The translations under genes were made by a program, and so were the position numbers. Shown here one piece after another: positions 39,911-50,876 of a stretch of DNA of 52,853 nucleotides. The notes beneath the pieces were generated by a model. That model did no database searches, was not told where the DNA came from, and worked only from the letters and a program-made list of their open reading frames with translations. Each line of letters opens with the position of its first letter. Position 1 is the first letter of the stretch. The DNA is from an uncultured Erysipelotrichaceae bacterium (lineage in GTDB: Bacteria; Bacillota_I; Bacilli_A; RFN20; CAG-826), in NCBI GenBank assembly GCA_902800905.1, contig CADCGC010000005.1, positions 1 through 52,853 of the forward strand, read 5' to 3'.

Positions 39911-39924
39911 TGCTCTTGTTTTTT
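39898..39924 (+). terminator. ECF S gene terminator
   Basis: ACAAGAGCA-ataa-TGCTCTTGT (39898-39919) and a T run. The loop contains the stop codon TAA. Confidence 0.85.
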
Positions 39925-39939
39925 AATACTTTGTATTAA

Positions 39940-40626
39940 TTATAGTCTTTTATTAACTCTATCCTTGATTCTTTCAATATCTTCTTCATTCTCAACGAGA
40001 GATAAAGCGTCTAATTCTTCTTCATACATAAAGCAAATACTATTCTTTATATCAGGATTCTTGTTTTTTGACATCAATACAGCCTCTCCTCCATAAATGT
40101 ACCAATGTCCAAGGAGATAGTAATTGTCTTCTTTCCCTTTGTCATCAACAAGAATGAATTTTGTTCCTCTTGAAGATTTTACAATGCGATCGTAAAAAGA
40201 TTCATTGTCTTGATGTTCTTCTTCGTCGTCTTCATCTTCATCAAATTCATCAAGTCTTTCATCAATTGGTTCAGGTTCTGGCGTTTTTTCGCCTTTAACT
40301 TCAGCGAGGAGTTCCTCTATCATTCTATCAATGTCGTCGATTTCTTCTTTCGTTTCTTCGGCACTCATTGTGTCTTCATCAGATGGAAGTTTTTTGACTG
40401 CTTCTTCGATGTTGTTTAAATCATCAAAAGAATAGGAGTTGATTCTTCTTATGGCTTCTTTAATGACACTATTTTGTTCTTCGGTATTTTTCTTGTCGCC
40501 TAAATAGGCTTCTAAAAATCTATTAATTGAGCCTCTCATTCTTTCTTCATCTGAGTTTTTAAAAAGAAGAACAGTGCTTACAATTAGTTCTCTAACTTCA
40601 CTCTCGAAAGTTTTTGTGTCATTCAT
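39940..40626 (-). CDS. Acidic protein with DUF1292-like C-terminus
   Basis: The 228-aa protein has three parts: an N-terminal helical segment (ETFESEVRELIVSTVLLFKNSD-like, residues ~5-90), a strongly acidic linker rich in Asp/Glu (~90-150), and a C-terminal beta-rich domain (KFILVDDKGKEDNYYLLGHWYIYGGEAVLMS) that resembles DUF1292/YrzB. Function unknown. ATG 40626 is chosen because GAGG lies nine bases upstream; a TTG at 40641 would add five residues. It is divergent from the Sel1-VirD4-ClpP operon with an 82-base intergenic region, so it may be co-regulated with it. Confidence 0.65.
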   Translation of the reverse strand: MNDTKTFESEVRELIVSTVLLFKNSDEERMRGSINRFLEAYLGDKKNTEEQNSVIKEAIRRINSYSFDDLNNIEEAVKKLPSDEDTMSAEETKEEIDDIDRMIEELLAEVKGEKTPEPEPIDERLDEFDEDEDDEEEHQDNESFYDRIVKSSRGTKFILVDDKGKEDNYYLLGHWYIYGGEAVLMSKNKNPDIKNSICFMYEEELDALSLVENEEDIERIKDRVNKRL

Positions 40627-40670
40627 ATAATGTCGCCTCAATTAAATATTATATTTTATATAAATAATAT

Positions 40671-40678
40671 GTTATCAT
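40671..40678 (+). promoter_or_regulatory. Candidate promoter of the Sel1-VirD4-ClpP operon
   Basis: TGTTATCAT, an extended -10 (TATCAT at 40673-40678 preceded by TGT). No good -35 was found. The AAAGGAG ribosome-binding site follows before the ATG at 40709. Confidence 0.4.
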
Positions 40679-40708
40679 AAATTCAACACCAATCAAAGGA
40701 GCACAATA

Positions 40709-41623
40709 ATGACTAAAGAAGTTTTTAACAACTACTTCCCTTTTTATGAAATGGTTAAGTTGTCGTTACTTTTAAGCAACAGAAAAGACGGCAAACCAGA
40801 TCAAGACATTCAAAAAATTATTGAATTTATTGGAAAATCATATCGATTAGATAGTGAATTTATTCAATATTGTTCAAAACAAATCATCGATGAACTATCC
40901 GCAATTAGTAGCGTGGATGATGTTAACGCATTTAAGAGCTTAAGTTCCACTAATAGTGAAGCTCTTGGAGATAATCCTAGCTTACTTCAAATTAAATGTG
41001 ATGCACTTAATGAAATCATTGATGAAACAAGTAGATACGATACAAAAGTTAATAAGAACTGGTTCGACTATTCTTATTATCGCCAATATGATGCCCAAGC
41101 AAGATTTGCTCAACTCAAGGCAACATCAACGGTTGGATATATTTCTGCTAACAAATTAGTTGCCATTATGTTAGCGGAAGGAATCGGTTGTAATAGAGAT
41201 CTTAAAGAAGCAATCTTAAGACTAAAGCAATGCGCCACTTGGGGTGATGTCCAATCACTTTATATGCTTGCCTATGCTTATGAATTAGATGAAAACGACG
41301 AACAAGCAAAGATTTATCGTGAACTCGCTGAACTTGATTCCTACTTCTTAAAAGGAATAACAGTGCTTCCAAAGAAAGAAGAAAGTAGAAGCCAAGTCGT
41401 CAAAGATTTATACGCAGAAATTTCTTCTTTAAAACATGATGTTGTTTATCAATACAATCTCAAAGATATCAATTATTCATTCGTAGAAGTGATGATTTCT
41501 AGTGATGTCAGTCACCTTCAAAAACTTGAATATATTAATAACTTCAACGCGAATGAATGGAAAGAAGCCACAAATAGTTCTAAATCAATCACTAAGATGG
41601 GCTTCAATTTAGGAGGAAAATAA
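40709..41623 (+). CDS. Sel1-like (TPR-type) repeat protein
   Basis: The 304-aa protein is soluble and helical. Residues ~130-215 look like Sel1-like repeats (ANKLVAIMLAEGIGCNRDLKEAILRLKQCA and GDVQSLYMLAYAYELDENDEQAKIYRELAE). Such repeats usually serve as protein-binding scaffolds. The N-terminal ~110 residues are not recognised. It is the first gene of a tight operon with a VirD4-like ATPase one base downstream, suggesting it is an adaptor for that ATPase or the ClpP pair. Confidence 0.7.
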   Translation: MTKEVFNNYFPFYEMVKLSLLLSNRKDGKPDQDIQKIIEFIGKSYRLDSEFIQYCSKQIIDELSAISSVDDVNAFKSLSSTNSEALGDNPSLLQIKCDALNEIIDETSRYDTKVNKNWFDYSYYRQYDAQARFAQLKATSTVGYISANKLVAIMLAEGIGCNRDLKEAILRLKQCATWGDVQSLYMLAYAYELDENDEQAKIYRELAELDSYFLKGITVLPKKEESRSQVVKDLYAEISSLKHDVVYQYNLKDINYSFVEVMISSDVSHLQKLEYINNFNANEWKEATNSSKSITKMGFNLGGK

Positions 41624-41624
41624 A

Positions 41625-43481
41625 ATGAGTAAGAAAGAATCATTATCCCATTATTTAATTGATGAATATATTTCCTCTAACCGTGAAAATTCCACAGTTA
41701 TTGATTATCACGAATTACGTGATAAAGGCATTAAAACTTATTACTATGATGAGTTAAATAGCACAGTCACAAAAGGATATCCTTTTGCTAGTGACTTATA
41801 CTGTGAAGAAAATGGTGAATGCTATTCTACAAGCGATGTTAAAAAGATGGACGCTGATTGGATTAGAAGCCATTGTCGTTTACGTTTCCATTACATGCCT
41901 TACTATCATGAACTTTATTTAGGTTCCACTGGTAGTGGTAAAACCACAGGCTGTATTGAACCACAAATCAGAGCGATCACTTCTCAAAAGAACAAACCAA
42001 ACATCTTCATCTCTGACCCTAAGGGTGAACTTTATGAACACAATGTCGCTCATCTTGTGAAGAATGGTTATTCTGTTCATATCGTTAACTTTAAAGATAC
42101 AACTCGTTCAGATAGATGGAATCCATTAACTGAATGCTACCGTCAAATGATGACCATTAATGATGTTGATAAATCATATAAACACATGAAAGGTCTTCCA
42201 AAAGAAAATGCAAGAATAAGCGGAAAACGTAGTGATTTCATTGAAGCAAACGGATATTACGTCTTTAAAAACGTTTGTTATGCAAACATGGAATCTTTAA
42301 GAAAGATGCTTGATTTTGAAAAATACATGATTCAATCAAAAGTCTTCTCAGAGGTTGCCCAAATCGCTTACACAATGCTCCCAGAAAAATCACAAAAAGA
42401 TCCGACTTGGGAAATGGGTGCTAGAAGATTACTTTTAGGTATTTTAGAAACCATGCTTCTTGAAGGACTTCAAAAACCAGATGAATTCAAAGAAGATATG
42501 TGCACAATTAAATCAGTCTTTGATTGCTTCACTTTATTAGTGAGATCTAGTAACAGAGATAGCAACGAAGATGATGGAACATTAGCAAGAAGAGAAAAAC
42601 TCTTAGCAAATAAACCAAAAGAAACCGTTGATAAAATCATGGGCGTTCTTACTACCGCTGATAGCACTAAGAAAGGCTACTTCTCAGTCTTTGAATCCTC
42701 TTTAGCGGACTGGTTACAAGGACATGTTTTCCAATTAACAAGTGGAACAACCTTCAATATTGATGATGATACCGAACATCCATTCGCTATCTTTTTTGCT
42801 ACAAGAGATTACACTAAGAGTGATTATGGCATTGCCTCATTATTCGTTGATTGGGTTTATCGCAAGATGTTAATTAAAGCTGACCAATCACCAAAAGATG
42901 AGAACAACAATCCTCAAACAAGAGTGACTCACTTCATCCTTGATGAATTTGGTAACATTCCAAGAATTCCAGATTTTGAAAACAAGATTGCTACTGCAAG
43001 AAGTAGAAATATTTATTTCCACATCTTTTTACAATCTTATGAACAATTAGATGTTGTTTATGGACATCAAACTGGAAACATTATCGTCGATAACTGTAAC
43101 CAACAATCTTATTTAGGTTCTCAACATAGTGAAACTAAGAAGAGATTCTCTGATCAATGTGGTATTAAGACCGTTAGTTCAATTTCATCAGTCTTAAAAG
43201 AAGGTGGAGTTAATCTTGAACAAGTTCCAGTTGTTACAATTAGTGACCTTGACTTAATTGAACCAGGAGAAATTTACTCAAAACGTATCTACACTCCAGT
43301 TGTTTTAAGTTCATATATTAGAAGCTATATTGCTGCAGACCTCAAGTATTTTGCGGATTTCAGAGTCCCAGATGTCTTTGAAGAATACGCACCTGTTAAC
43401 AATGTCATTTGTAATGACGCAGAACATACATATGATGGATTCAGTACGATGAAGAAGATTTATCGAGAAAGAAGATATTAA
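41625..43481 (+). CDS. Soluble VirD4/TraG-like ATPase
   Basis: The 618-aa protein is a member of the VirD4/TraG (T4SS coupling protein) ATPase family: Walker A LGSTGSGKTTGCIEPQI (~residues 99-115), ISDPKGELYEHN, Walker B HFILDEFGNIPRIPDFENKIATARSRNI (~438-465) and FLQSYEQLDVVYG. Unlike conjugation coupling proteins it has no N-terminal membrane helices: the first 95 residues are polar. No relaxase, VirB4 or other conjugation gene is nearby. GGAGG lies eight bases before the ATG, inside the Sel1-like gene. Downstream, one base away, are two ClpP paralogues. It may pump DNA or protein into another complex; its role here is unknown. Confidence 0.85.
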   Translation: MSKKESLSHYLIDEYISSNRENSTVIDYHELRDKGIKTYYYDELNSTVTKGYPFASDLYCEENGECYSTSDVKKMDADWIRSHCRLRFHYMPYYHELYLGSTGSGKTTGCIEPQIRAITSQKNKPNIFISDPKGELYEHNVAHLVKNGYSVHIVNFKDTTRSDRWNPLTECYRQMMTINDVDKSYKHMKGLPKENARISGKRSDFIEANGYYVFKNVCYANMESLRKMLDFEKYMIQSKVFSEVAQIAYTMLPEKSQKDPTWEMGARRLLLGILETMLLEGLQKPDEFKEDMCTIKSVFDCFTLLVRSSNRDSNEDDGTLARREKLLANKPKETVDKIMGVLTTADSTKKGYFSVFESSLADWLQGHVFQLTSGTTFNIDDDTEHPFAIFFATRDYTKSDYGIASLFVDWVYRKMLIKADQSPKDENNNPQTRVTHFILDEFGNIPRIPDFENKIATARSRNIYFHIFLQSYEQLDVVYGHQTGNIIVDNCNQQSYLGSQHSETKKRFSDQCGIKTVSSISSVLKEGGVNLEQVPVVTISDLDLIEPGEIYSKRIYTPVVLSSYIRSYIAADLKYFADFRVPDVFEEYAPVNNVICNDAEHTYDGFSTMKKIYRERRY

Positions 43482-43482
43482 T

Positions 43483-44025
43483 ATGCCAAAAGAAAAAGAA
43501 TTAAATGAACTTTTAATTGAAAATGGTATTCTCCTCGTCACTAGTGGAGCATGCGCAAAGTCACCAACAGATATCATTTTTGCTTTGATGACTTATGAAT
43601 TAAAAGACCCAACCAAAGAGATTAAACTCTACATTTCTTCAACATGTGATGAGCCAACAAATATGTTAGCGATTTATGACACTCTTAAGGCGATTAAGAA
43701 TCCTATTTCCGCAACATGTGTTGGACTTATTAGCAATTATGGAGCGTTACTTCTTTCTGCCGCTAATAAAGGTAGAAGATTCGCGCTTAAACACTCCCAA
43801 TTCTCTTTAAGAGAACCTTATGGATATCTTGGAAACGGTGCTAACCAACAAACTGAAGTTGCTATTTTAGCAAAAGAAACATCAACATTAAGAAGAGACT
43901 TTGAAGAACTCTTCTCTAAAGAAACTGGTCAACCAGTTGAGAAGATTCATGAAGACCTTCATAATGGTTTATCTTTAAACGCTGAAGAAGCAAAAGCATA
44001 TGGAATTATTGATGAGGTGATTTAA
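43483..44025 (+). CDS. Catalytically dead ClpP-like protein (ClpR-like)
   Basis: The 180-aa protein has the ClpP fold pattern (IKLYISSTCDEPTNMLAIYDTLKAI, GALLLSAANKGRRFALKHSQF, LSLNAEEAKAYGIIDEVI). By alignment with ClpP2 downstream and with E. coli ClpP, the catalytic Ser is replaced by Asn (N85) and the catalytic His by Arg (R110). The oxyanion-side SPGG is replaced by STCD. The Asp-containing segment is degraded (EDLHNGLSL). It probably plays a structural role like ClpR in plastids and cyanobacteria, in a mixed ring with the next gene. The N-terminal axial loop region is short. Confidence 0.8.
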   Translation: MPKEKELNELLIENGILLVTSGACAKSPTDIIFALMTYELKDPTKEIKLYISSTCDEPTNMLAIYDTLKAIKNPISATCVGLISNYGALLLSAANKGRRFALKHSQFSLREPYGYLGNGANQQTEVAILAKETSTLRRDFEELFSKETGQPVEKIHEDLHNGLSLNAEEAKAYGIIDEVI

Positions 44026-44027
44026 TT

Positions 44028-44543
44028 ATGGATGATAGTAGAATTGTCACATTAGACAACGAAGTCAATGAAGGCTCTGCCTTACAAGTAATAATGAAAT
44101 TGCTTTATTTAGATTCCTTAGAACCAGGAAAAGAAATATATTTGTATATTAATTCTCCTGGAGGAAGCATTCTTCATGGTTTAGCAATCTATGACACGAT
44201 TAAACATATTAAGTCACCTGTTTATACAGTGTGTTGTGGTTTAGCAGCCTCAATGGGTGCATTCTTACTGAGCTGTGGAGAAAAAGGTCATAGAGCAGCT
44301 TTAAAACATAGTCGTATCTTAATCCATCAACCTTTGATTTACACTGATGGGGGATATGGACAAAGTGAAACAGCGTTAAGAGAAACTGCTGAAAGATTAT
44401 CTAAGAATAGAGATATTTTAGAATCCATTATGGCAGATAATATCGGTGTCACAGTTAATAAGATTCACGCAGATTGTGAAAGAGATAACTGGATGAGCGC
44501 TGATGAAGCCAAAGAATACGGATTAATTGATCAAGTAATCTAA
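44028..44543 (+). CDS. ClpP-like serine protease, short form
   Basis: The 171-aa protein keeps the full ClpP active site: YINSPGG (residues 40-46), S75 in LAASMGAFLL, H100 in RILIHQP and D149 in DCERDNWMSADEAKEYG. It lacks about 20 N-terminal residues that form the axial pore loops of ordinary ClpP, so Clp ATPase docking may differ. A near-perfect Shine-Dalgarno (GAGGTGATT) lies in the end of the previous gene. Tight linkage to the dead paralogue suggests a hetero-oligomer. It is not possible to tell whether a canonical clpP exists elsewhere. Confidence 0.9.
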   Translation: MDDSRIVTLDNEVNEGSALQVIMKLLYLDSLEPGKEIYLYINSPGGSILHGLAIYDTIKHIKSPVYTVCCGLAASMGAFLLSCGEKGHRAALKHSRILIHQPLIYTDGGYGQSETALRETAERLSKNRDILESIMADNIGVTVNKIHADCERDNWMSADEAKEYGLIDQVI

Positions 44544-44545
44544 CA

Positions 44546-48172: not shown

Positions 48173-48508
48173 ATGTATATTAACGATAATGTCATTAACA
48201 AAATGCAAGACACACTTAAAATAGCGGCAGATGGGACGAGATTAAAGATTCTATCTTGCTTATTAAATGAATTAGATGTCAGTGATAGCCATCCTCATCT
48301 AATTGAAAAATGTGTTAATGATATTTCTCTACAAATTGGTAGTAGCCAATCTTTAGTCAGTCATCAACTTAAAGTTCTTAAAGATGGTGGTTTTGTTAAA
48401 GCAAGAAAAGAAGGCACTAAAATCTATTATTCCCTCAAGGATGAACATGTTAGACAAATTATGCAAATAACATATGAACATGTGTTAGAGGATGACGACA
48501 ATGATTAA
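48173..48508 (+). CDS. ArsR/SmtB-family zinc-responsive repressor
   Basis: The 111-aa winged-helix repressor has GTRLKILSCLLN, SSQSLVSHQLKVLKDGGFVKARKEGTKIYYSL (recognition helix and wing). The C-terminal alpha-5 helix carries D90, H92, H103 and E106, the exact spacing of the SmtB zinc site (D-x-H-x10-H-x2-E). This predicts release from DNA on Zn(II) (or Cd). It overlaps the exporter gene by eight bases and autoregulates through the two operators upstream. Confidence 0.9.
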   Translation: MYINDNVINKMQDTLKIAADGTRLKILSCLLNELDVSDSHPHLIEKCVNDISLQIGSSQSLVSHQLKVLKDGGFVKARKEGTKIYYSLKDEHVRQIMQITYEHVLEDDDND

Positions 48509-50876
48509 GAAAACATATAGTATCACTGGTTTTGATTGTGCAAGTTGTGCTTCTAAAAGTGAAACCCACCTCAATAAAAATGAATATATTGAAAGTGCAG
48601 TCATTGATTTTAATAACGACCGTTTGCATGTAACTTTTAAAGAAAAGGAATTGCCTCCAAAAGAATTAAAAAAAATCATTAAAGAAGTGGAAGACGACCC
48701 AATCGAAATTGAAGAATTGAATCAAAAAACCATCAAGAAGTCCTATATTATTACTGGATTTGACTGCGCTTCTTGTGCTTCTAAAAGCGAAGCACATTTA
48801 AATAAACACGAATGTATTGATTCATGTGTAATCGATTTTAGTGCGGATAGATTACACGTTACATATAAAGAAAAAGAATTATCTCCTAGTGAATTAAAAT
48901 CAATCATCGCGGAAGTTGAAGATGATCCAATTGAAATTAAAGAACTAGGCGAAAAGACAAGTAAGAAATCTCTATTTGATAAAGAGATGATATTTACATT
49001 ATGTAGAGTTCTTGTTGGTGTTATAACTATCATTTTCTCTTTAACTTTATTCCACGAAGAACAATTCTTCTGGGTGAACTTTGGTATCTTTGCCTTTGCG
49101 TTATTACTTCTTTCTTATGATGTATATTTTGCAGTCATTAAACATATCATTCATTTAGAGAATCCGTTTGATGAAGAACTATTAATGACCATTACTAGTA
49201 TTGGAGCGTTCGTTGTTGCTTCAATTAGTCAAGAGACCCATTTATATATTGAAGGCCTAATGGTCATGATTCTCTTCCAAATTGGTGAGATTATCGAAGG
49301 CATTGCGACAAATAAATCAAAGAACGCGATTATGTCTGCGGTTTCTTTAAGAGTTGAAACTGCGAATAAAGTTGTTGGTGGTGATGTTATTACTGTTAAA
49401 CCAGAAGAATTAAATATCGGTGATGTTGTTATTGTTTCTACAGGTGAGCAAGTCCCTGTTGATGGATATATCTTAGAAGGCAATGCTGAACTTGATACCT
49501 CTAGTCTTACTGGTGAATTTGTTCCTATTACCGCTAAAGAGGAACTAGAAATCTTTGCTGGATATATTGTTAAAAGTGGCTCTATTAGAGTTAGAGTCAA
49601 CAAAGAATATAAAGATAGTGCAGTTAACAAAGTTGTTGAATTAATCACTAATAGTGGCGCTAAAAAGAGCAAAGCTGATGAATTTGTTACTAAGTTCGCT
49701 AGAATCTATACTCCTATCATCTTTACAGTTGCTTTATTAACTGGCTTAATCGGTGGATTAATTACTTTAGATTATCAAACATGGTTAATCTTAGGATTAA
49801 AGATGTTAGTAGTGGGCTGTCCATGCTCAATCGTTATTTCTGTCCCACTTGCATATTTTGCTGCGGTTGGTTTAGCGTCTAAAAACGGTGTGGTTGTTAA
49901 AGGAACAAATTATTTAGATCAATTAGTAAATCTTAAGAAAGTTGTTACTGATAAAACTGGAACATTAACTAAGGGTGTCTTTGTTATAACAAAAAAATAC
50001 GCAGTAAATGGTAATGAAGAAGAACTAATGAAATATCTTGTTGCGGCTGAATACTTATCCACTCACCCAATTGGTGTTGCAATTTGCAAGCATCAAGAAA
50101 TTGATAATATCGCAAAAGATGTATCTGACTATCAAGAGATTGCTGGCAAAGGTGTTTCTGTTGCCTATAAAGGAAAGAAAGTTTTAGCGGGTAATGAACG
50201 TTTAATGACCGCTAATGGAATTACATTCGAAGAAGTAAAAGAGGCGGGTTCTGTTGTGTATTTAGCGGTAGATGGCAAGTTCTATGGCTATGTTGTTGTT
50301 AGCGATGAAATCAAGGAAGATGCAAAAGAAATGGTTGCGTTACTTAACAAAGAAGGTATTGAAACCATTCTTCTTACTGGCGATAAAGAAAGCAATGCAA
50401 AAGCATTATGTGAAGAACTTGGTATCACTAGATATAAAGCTGAATTATTACCAGAAGATAAACTCCATCATTTAGAAAATGAATTAGATAAGAAATATGC
50501 GACTGCATTTGTTGGTGATGGAATTAACGACGCAGCGTCAATTAAAGAAGCTGATGTCGGATTTGCAATGGGAGCGATTGGGAGCGATGTCGCTGTTGAA
50601 AGTGCAGATGTCGTCATTATGAACGATGATCCAAGTAAAGTGTATGATGCTTATAAGATTAGTAAGATTGCTAGAGGAACAGCGTTATTTAATATCATTT
50701 TCTCGTTATTAATTAAAATTGGGATTGAAGTAGCCGCGTTAATTACTAGTTTACTTGGAAGAGGAGATGTAATTCCAATGTGGCTTGCTGTATTGGCGGA
50801 TACTGGTTTAACTGTTTCCTTAGTTATTAATTCTTTATTAATTCTATATAGAAAAATTAATCATAAGAGTGTTTAA
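48501..50876 (+). CDS. Zn/Cd-exporting P1B-type ATPase with two HMA domains
   Basis: The 791-aa protein exports divalent metal, probably Zn(II) or Cd(II). Two tandem heavy-metal-associated domains (GFDCASCASKSE motifs at residues ~10 and ~86) are nearly identical. Then come six to eight membrane segments with the CPCS metal motif, the actuator LTGEFVP, the phosphorylation DKTGTLTKG, the HP motif STHPIGVAI and GDGINDAASIKEADVGFAMG. ATG 48501 is chosen because GAGG lies nine bases upstream. It is the target of the repressor upstream. Confidence 0.93.
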   Translation: MIKKTYSITGFDCASCASKSETHLNKNEYIESAVIDFNNDRLHVTFKEKELPPKELKKIIKEVEDDPIEIEELNQKTIKKSYIITGFDCASCASKSEAHLNKHECIDSCVIDFSADRLHVTYKEKELSPSELKSIIAEVEDDPIEIKELGEKTSKKSLFDKEMIFTLCRVLVGVITIIFSLTLFHEEQFFWVNFGIFAFALLLLSYDVYFAVIKHIIHLENPFDEELLMTITSIGAFVVASISQETHLYIEGLMVMILFQIGEIIEGIATNKSKNAIMSAVSLRVETANKVVGGDVITVKPEELNIGDVVIVSTGEQVPVDGYILEGNAELDTSSLTGEFVPITAKEELEIFAGYIVKSGSIRVRVNKEYKDSAVNKVVELITNSGAKKSKADEFVTKFARIYTPIIFTVALLTGLIGGLITLDYQTWLILGLKMLVVGCPCSIVISVPLAYFAAVGLASKNGVVVKGTNYLDQLVNLKKVVTDKTGTLTKGVFVITKKYAVNGNEEELMKYLVAAEYLSTHPIGVAICKHQEIDNIAKDVSDYQEIAGKGVSVAYKGKKVLAGNERLMTANGITFEEVKEAGSVVYLAVDGKFYGYVVVSDEIKEDAKEMVALLNKEGIETILLTGDKESNAKALCEELGITRYKAELLPEDKLHHLENELDKKYATAFVGDGINDAASIKEADVGFAMGAIGSDVAVESADVVIMNDDPSKVYDAYKISKIARGTALFNIIFSLLIKIGIEVAALITSLLGRGDVIPMWLAVLADTGLTVSLVINSLLILYRKINHKSV

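Follow-up and report, generated by a model that had tools for sequence, protein, structure and literature searches.

We describe a four-gene operon at positions 40709-44543 of the window, a 52,853-nucleotide stretch comprising contig CADCGC010000005.1 of an uncultured Erysipelotrichaceae bacterium (GenBank assembly GCA_902800905.1), which probably encodes an ATP-dependent protease of the Clp type, driven by a VirD4/HerA-class hexamer that is docked via a Sel1-like subunit. The four open reading frames (ORFs) lie on the forward strand with gaps of 1, 1 and 2 bp, as stated by the original prediction from the sequence of the window, and encode a Sel1-like companion protein of 304 residues (40709-41623), a soluble VirD4/TrwB-type ATPase of 618 residues (41625-43481), a ClpP paralogue of 180 residues lacking the catalytic triad, ClpR (43483-44025), and a ClpP of 171 residues with the full triad S75/H100/D153 (44028-44543). 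In the mechanism we propose, a soluble VirD4/TrwB-class hexamer of the FtsK-HerA superfamily would stand in place of the AAA+ Clp ATPase, the Sel1-like subunit would bind this motor, and its flexible [ILM]-G-F tail would plug the hydrophobic pockets of the ClpP family, taking the part of the IGF loops of ClpX and ClpA; ClpR and ClpP would form a mixed barrel, with the dead ClpR ring toward the motor and the active sites provided by ClpP. We infer the coupling of motor and barrel from sequence and genomics, and likewise hexamer formation, physical docking, the arrangement of the rings and the threading of protein by the motor. Relatives were drawn from a reference set of 279 genomes of the order, of which family f1 is a part, and loci of the window kind (Sel1-like plus soluble VirD4, with or without ClpR/ClpP) are called type A below.

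The first protein had been named a Sel1-repeat protein. It has no Pfam match above the cut-off to Sel1 repeats or any other family, and its AlphaFold2 model is an alpha-solenoid (pLDDT 90.8). Among solved structures, Sel1-repeat proteins come nearest to it (Foldseek probability up to 0.99; best E-value only 0.03); because this similarity is weak, “Sel1-like” is the right word. The solenoid is followed by a C-terminal tail that is variable in sequence and predicted to be disordered, inside which stands a conserved tripeptide: [ILMVF]-G-F occurs inside the last 12 residues of 21/21 aligned Sel1-like proteins, several of which end precisely there. The window protein carries MGF (M297-G298-F299; codons at 41597-41605, forward strand), a putative IGF-type ClpP-docking tripeptide in which G298 and F299 are invariant in the 21 homologues. 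As background, [ILVM]GF is found in the last 12 residues of 0.74% of 944 other mechanically called ORFs from these loci, and the tail motif is found in 0/5 generic Sel1-region proteins. In Clp ATPases, a tripeptide of the form (L/I/V)-G-(F/L) in a loop of the motor enters hydrophobic pockets of ClpP (PMC8745299); here a motif of this type sits on the C-terminal tail of a partner protein of the motor. Clostridia whose sole ClpP is the housekeeping one retain the motif, and there it would fit docking to that enzyme.

The second protein is a soluble ATPase of the VirD4/TraG family, as anticipated, with Pfam matches to T4SS-DNA_transf (5e-36) and TraG-D_C (3e-26). It has a Walker A motif GSTGSGKTT (residues 100-108; 41922-41948, forward strand), of which T102, G105, K106, T107 and T108 are invariant in 28 homologues, and a Walker B motif FILDEF (residues 437-442; 42933-42950, forward strand), of which F437, L439, D440, E441 and F442 are invariant in the same number. 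Structural alignment of its model (pLDDT 88) gives Z 27-29 with TrwB and Cag-beta and Z 17-19 with HerA chains, among them those of the SIR2-HerA and DUF4297-HerA complexes; the protein combines the VirD4/TrwB fold and Walker motifs of a type IV coupling protein with a structural similarity to HerA that places it among the FtsK-HerA superfamily motors. None of the type A sequences has a transmembrane helix or hydrophobic segment in the N-terminal part, whereas their conjugative relatives have one. The nearest named family is the conjugative CD1115 VirD4, matched below its cut-off; on plasmids, the protein finds only CD1115-type conjugative proteins, at no more than 28% identity among the best matches listed. 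PADLOC and NCBIfam returned nothing specific, the former only a weak mad8 match, and in a VirD4 phylogeny all 25 type A sequences fall in one fully supported clade.

A motor of this class could act on DNA instead of threading protein: the Sel1-VirD4 pair would still dock on ClpP, and the motor would track along DNA, bringing the protease to DNA-bound proteins (for example phage replication proteins) or activating it there. The TrwB/HerA-type fold with its conserved Walker motifs is compatible with such a role, as are the PDB defence complexes in which HerA-class motors partner other effectors (SIR2-HerA, DUF4297-HerA) and the TIR and RyR genes found close to certain copies of the operon (see below). 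However, the present data do not point to DNA binding by the motor, and by textbook knowledge ClpP barrels normally depend on a threading unfoldase for folded substrates. We consider DNA tracking unlikely, and favour a motor that would thread protein into the barrel.

The third and fourth proteins match Pfam CLP_protease at 8.5e-38 (ClpR) and 4.7e-61 (ClpP). ClpR has N, R and G at the positions of S97, H122 and D171 of E. coli ClpP, and the last protein has both the fold and the catalytic triad of a Clp protease; this division into a triad-less and a full-triad member, correctly read from the window, holds among relatives, the triad being intact in 9/9 ClpP homologues and complete in 0/10 ClpR homologues. 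Since the first residue of the type A ClpP corresponds roughly to residue 24 of the mature E. coli protein, about 23 N-terminal residues are missing and with them the N-terminal axial loop. The pocket positions 23, 92, 112 and 114 of ClpR are aliphatic or aromatic in 10/10 homologues, but positions 92 and 112 are variable in ClpP; the better conservation of the ClpR pocket points to the ClpR ring as the docking face for the motor.

The genes of the operon are inherited together. Full matches to a profile of the Sel1-like protein occur in 8/279 genomes (7 genera); a ClpR profile picks out exactly these 8, all above 244 bits with the next match at 156 bits, and within family f1 it is again these 8 genomes that have VirD4 orthologues (at least 41% identity), a coincidence with p about 1e-15 if the genes were independent. 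Within the genus of the window genome the orthologous ATPase is present in 2/19 genomes, and these two copies are just 46% identical to each other. Flanks are unrelated between genomes and the operon genes stay together, so that the conservation of a four-gene unit is borne out for the gene set; its exact order is not universal, with clpR-clpP-sel1-virD4 in G031, other arrangements in several Clostridia, an additional gene between virD4 and clpR in G068, and a set divided by contig ends in G067 and G158. A single-protein scan of genome contigs gave no match, and a profile scan gave about 25 loci at 40-48% identity, including some in Clostridia, Christensenella and Acholeplasmatales assemblies (the genomes being partly the same as those above). 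Sel1 and VirD4 are nearly always paired in these loci; ClpR/ClpP stand beside the pair, divergently transcribed, in some (L127, L131 and L141), and other loci are without them. Among the Clostridia genomes behind the loci, 5 have ClpR and a dedicated ClpP and about 10 have one ordinary ClpP elsewhere.

Co-inheritance could nevertheless arise without joint function, with ClpR and ClpP using an unlinked Clp ATPase or acting as a stand-alone peptidase, and with VirD4 and the Sel1-like protein merely inherited alongside for another job; ClpB-like ATPases in several of the genomes and the many clostridial Sel1-VirD4 pairs without a linked ClpP speak for this. In all 8 genomes, the operon ClpR and ClpP are the sole members of the ClpP family. 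A search for PF10431, the Clp ATPase C-terminal domain, found none in G064, G067 (97% complete) and G158, a weak match in G068, and ordinary matches in G000 (the window genome), G004, G031 and G075. The ClpB-like proteins of G000, G004 and G031 (~705 residues) lack an (L/I/V)-G-(F/L) loop where one would be expected, and proteins of this kind are also present in ClpP-free genomes of the genus; in G068 the search hit a ClpA-like AAA protein that belongs to a separate island, with no such motif seen at that place, and the G075 match was read in part only. Perfect co-occurrence, the lack of a Clp ATPase in G067, ClpB-like proteins without IGF loops, and a ClpP-docking-type motif on the Sel1-like tail in 21/21 together make separate functions quite improbable. 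The original prediction had proposed that the VirD4-like hexamer either replaces or feeds a Clp ATPase; with no usable Clp ATPase and an IGF-type tail on the Sel1-like partner, replacement is favoured and feeding disfavoured.

Two observations on these AAA proteins can be recorded separately. The window genome has two ClpB-like genes, on contigs C14 (L103) and C58 (L104), and C58 is probably contamination, because G012 (L113) has an almost identical copy of its ClpB-like gene. An island of about 8-10 conserved genes (L048:10875-19998, L107:6361-15925, and L038:15733-18000 with L242:33-9727) adjoins VirD4-ClpP loci in G146, G068 and G004; it contains a ClpA-like AAA protein, a coiled-coil-like protein, a Fer4_12 radical-SAM-like protein, a P-loop protein that weakly matches DO-GTPase2 and, in 2/3 copies, a transglutaminase-like protein.

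Association of soluble VirD4 with ClpP extends beyond type A, two further groups of soluble VirD4 adjoining ClpP: type B (G145, G146, L146 and L162) and type C (genera g31, g3 and g5). The companion of type B is larger than the Sel1-like protein and homologous to it (hhalign 94%), with YGF or FGF tails in most cases; that of type C has no detectable relation to it (hhalign probability 0.4%), yet ends in LGL, MGL, IGL or YGF. Across family f1, VirD4 matches coincide with ClpP above 100 bits in 21 genomes, just one of the two occurs in 16 and 2, and both are lacking in 185 (Fisher p = 1.7e-17, an optimistic value because the genomes are related), and wherever they co-occur they lie on the same contig, at most ~6 kb apart. 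In a scan of 81 loci, ClpP was nearby for 14/32 soluble VirD4s and 0/49 membrane-anchored VirD4s. At one locus a type B ClpP-Sel1-VirD4 set is followed (L112:11524-15800) by a protein with a SLOG-like start, recognised by eye, and a 757-residue protein with a RyR-like region. A divergent ClpP (70 bits) on a short contig (L050; G003:C27) is probably a prophage prohead protease, because its neighbours resemble, by eye, phage packaging and head genes.

The operon of the window and a divergent gene at 39940-40641 form an accessory insert of ~4.6 kb (39911-44545) between an ECF transporter gene and a NUDIX gene, in a genuine chromosomal neighbourhood, since four congeneric genomes (G002, G008, G011 and G013) keep ECF-S, NUDIX, NagD, MFS, GlpQ, ArsR and P-type ATPase genes uninterrupted without it; G011 has one other small gene at the empty site. 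The GC content of the operon (34.3%) does not differ from that of its flanks (34-35%). Neither the ORF list of the window nor Pfam on the adjacent genes shows a recognisable relaxase, VirB4, type IV secretion system (T4SS), Clp ATPase or phage gene adjoining the operon, in agreement with what had been seen from the letters, and the neighbourhoods listed for relatives likewise show no relaxase or T4SS gene. The operon is not a conjugative remnant: a decayed or miniature conjugative element that left a coupling protein beside unrelated ClpP cargo would explain the VirD4 family membership and the sub-threshold CD1115 match, but is, like a degraded prophage, ruled out beyond reasonable doubt by the empty sites in an uninterrupted housekeeping neighbourhood, the missing relaxase, VirB4, T4SS genes and transmembrane anchor, ORFs intact in many genera, the separate and fully supported type A clade, the failure to find the Sel1-like marker on any of 72,556 plasmids or on viral contigs, and anchored VirD4 loci without ClpP.

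Partner genes point to how such a protease might be controlled. Most type A loci and several type C loci adjoin a gene for a large protein (TM-Rossmann-RyR) with hydrophobic segments at the N terminus, Rossmann-like motifs (recognised by eye) and, at the C terminus, a RyR-like domain, the last assigned from a Pfam match at 7e-5 in one member and weak profile matches to RyR structures. In the window genome this gene is unlinked (contig 3, 55.4-58.1 kb), and the protein is present in 7/8 type A genomes vs 50/279 in the order (p = 2.8e-5). Some loci have TIR-NTPase proteins, and some relatives small RyR proteins; according to a preprint (PMC13232231), phage proteins with RyR domains bind cyclic ADP-ribose immune signals or cleave them. 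Signal-controlled immunity is suggested by the RyR and TIR partner genes, and the operon is probably a signal-controlled stress or immune protease, perhaps under the control of the TM-Rossmann-RyR membrane protein. A more far-reaching version is tentative, and we would hold it to be possible rather than probable: a new protease class built from a VirD4-branch motor, an IGF-tailed adaptor and ClpR/ClpP, receiving a nucleotide (ADP-ribose-type) immune signal through TM-Rossmann-RyR, with an architecture reached more than once with unrelated adaptors. Among the partners themselves, one type A operon adjoins a TIR-NTPase-TPR protein with an extra C-terminal APH-type kinase domain (L043:4269-8090), and DUF1292-like small acidic proteins recur as partners near the operon with small RyR proteins (L038:11110-12205, L042:8519-9100).

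Several points weigh against a VirD4-driven Clp-type protease. TrwB-type motors are known best as DNA translocases. About 10 Clostridia have the Sel1-VirD4 pair with no dedicated ClpP nearby and no ClpR anywhere, and the pair may therefore serve another primary function. No axial loop is present in the type A ClpP, whose pocket residues are themselves partly degenerate; the RyR partner is undetectable in G067, and the type B companion of L162 has an IGH tail instead. The agreement of 21 tails is one of homologous sequences, which are not independent observations, and all genomes compared are metagenome-assembled (that of the window comprising 1.85 Mb in 64 contigs, 94% complete and 4.2% contaminated). 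Finally, IGF peptides have little effect on ClpP when free and linear (PMC8745299), so that avidity of a multimer must be assumed for the proposed docking.

Of the neighbouring genes, the divergent one (39940-40641, reverse strand, 233 residues) is missing from the empty sites, has no Pfam match above the cut-off and no detectable homologue in other type A loci, and is a possible fifth gene; a comparison gave no support for it as the counterpart of the DUF1292-like genes at the same place elsewhere. The downstream NUDIX and NagD genes were rejected as operon members, because in relatives both directly follow the ECF gene. Promoter and terminator scans gave no more signals than shuffled sequence. 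Farther downstream, the P-type ATPase at 48492-50876, behind an ArsR-like regulator, has two near-identical N-terminal metal-binding repeats.

AAA+ motors drive the known self-compartmentalised, ATP-dependent proteases of bacteria. If the proposed coupling is true, the operon would represent a new kind of energy-driven protease, possibly for immunity; the docking code, an IGF tripeptide entering ClpP pockets, would be portable to another motor family, VirD4-type pumps would gain a role outside secretion, and a protease arm would be added to the motor-effector logic of bacterial defence. The proposal also makes a sharp prediction, that a single C-terminal tripeptide of a third protein should control assembly. 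Literature on ClpP with VirD4, HerA, TraG and conflict systems gave no described VirD4-ClpP system, as the original prediction had stated, within a search that covered few subscription papers and in which absence is no proof.

Compared with ClpXP, ClpAP and ClpCP, the operon shares a ClpP barrel with a Ser-His-Asp triad, a P-loop motor (here proposed to be hexameric) and a tripeptide of the (L/I/V)-G-(F/L) type. It differs in that the motor is of the VirD4/TrwB class, for which reason it is not a classical Clp protease, with no Clp ATPase in or beside the operon; in that the motif is on the C-terminal tail of a separate subunit and not on a motor loop; and in a ClpP without the N-terminal axial loop, accompanied by a dead paralogue. 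The mixed ClpP/ClpR and ClpP1P2 barrels of cyanobacteria, plastids, mycobacteria and Listeria likewise co-encode a dead or distinct ClpP paralogue with an active one, but motor and docking are different, and the likeness to cyanobacterial and plastid ClpR is one of triad loss. With the VirD4/TrwB/TraG coupling proteins, of which CD1115 is nearest, the motor shares its fold, conserved Walker motifs and Z of 27-29 to TrwB and Cag-beta, but it has no transmembrane anchor and no relaxase or T4SS genes, and its partners are a constant Sel1-like protein and, frequently, ClpP. Like the HerA defence complexes (SIR2-HerA, DUF4297-HerA), finally, the system has an FtsK-HerA superfamily motor and an enzymatic effector together in one accessory cassette; in contrast to them, its motor belongs to the VirD4 branch, and its partners are the Sel1-like protein and ClpR/ClpP in place of SIR2, DUF4297 or a nuclease, making the candidate effector a Clp-type protease and not an NADase or nuclease.

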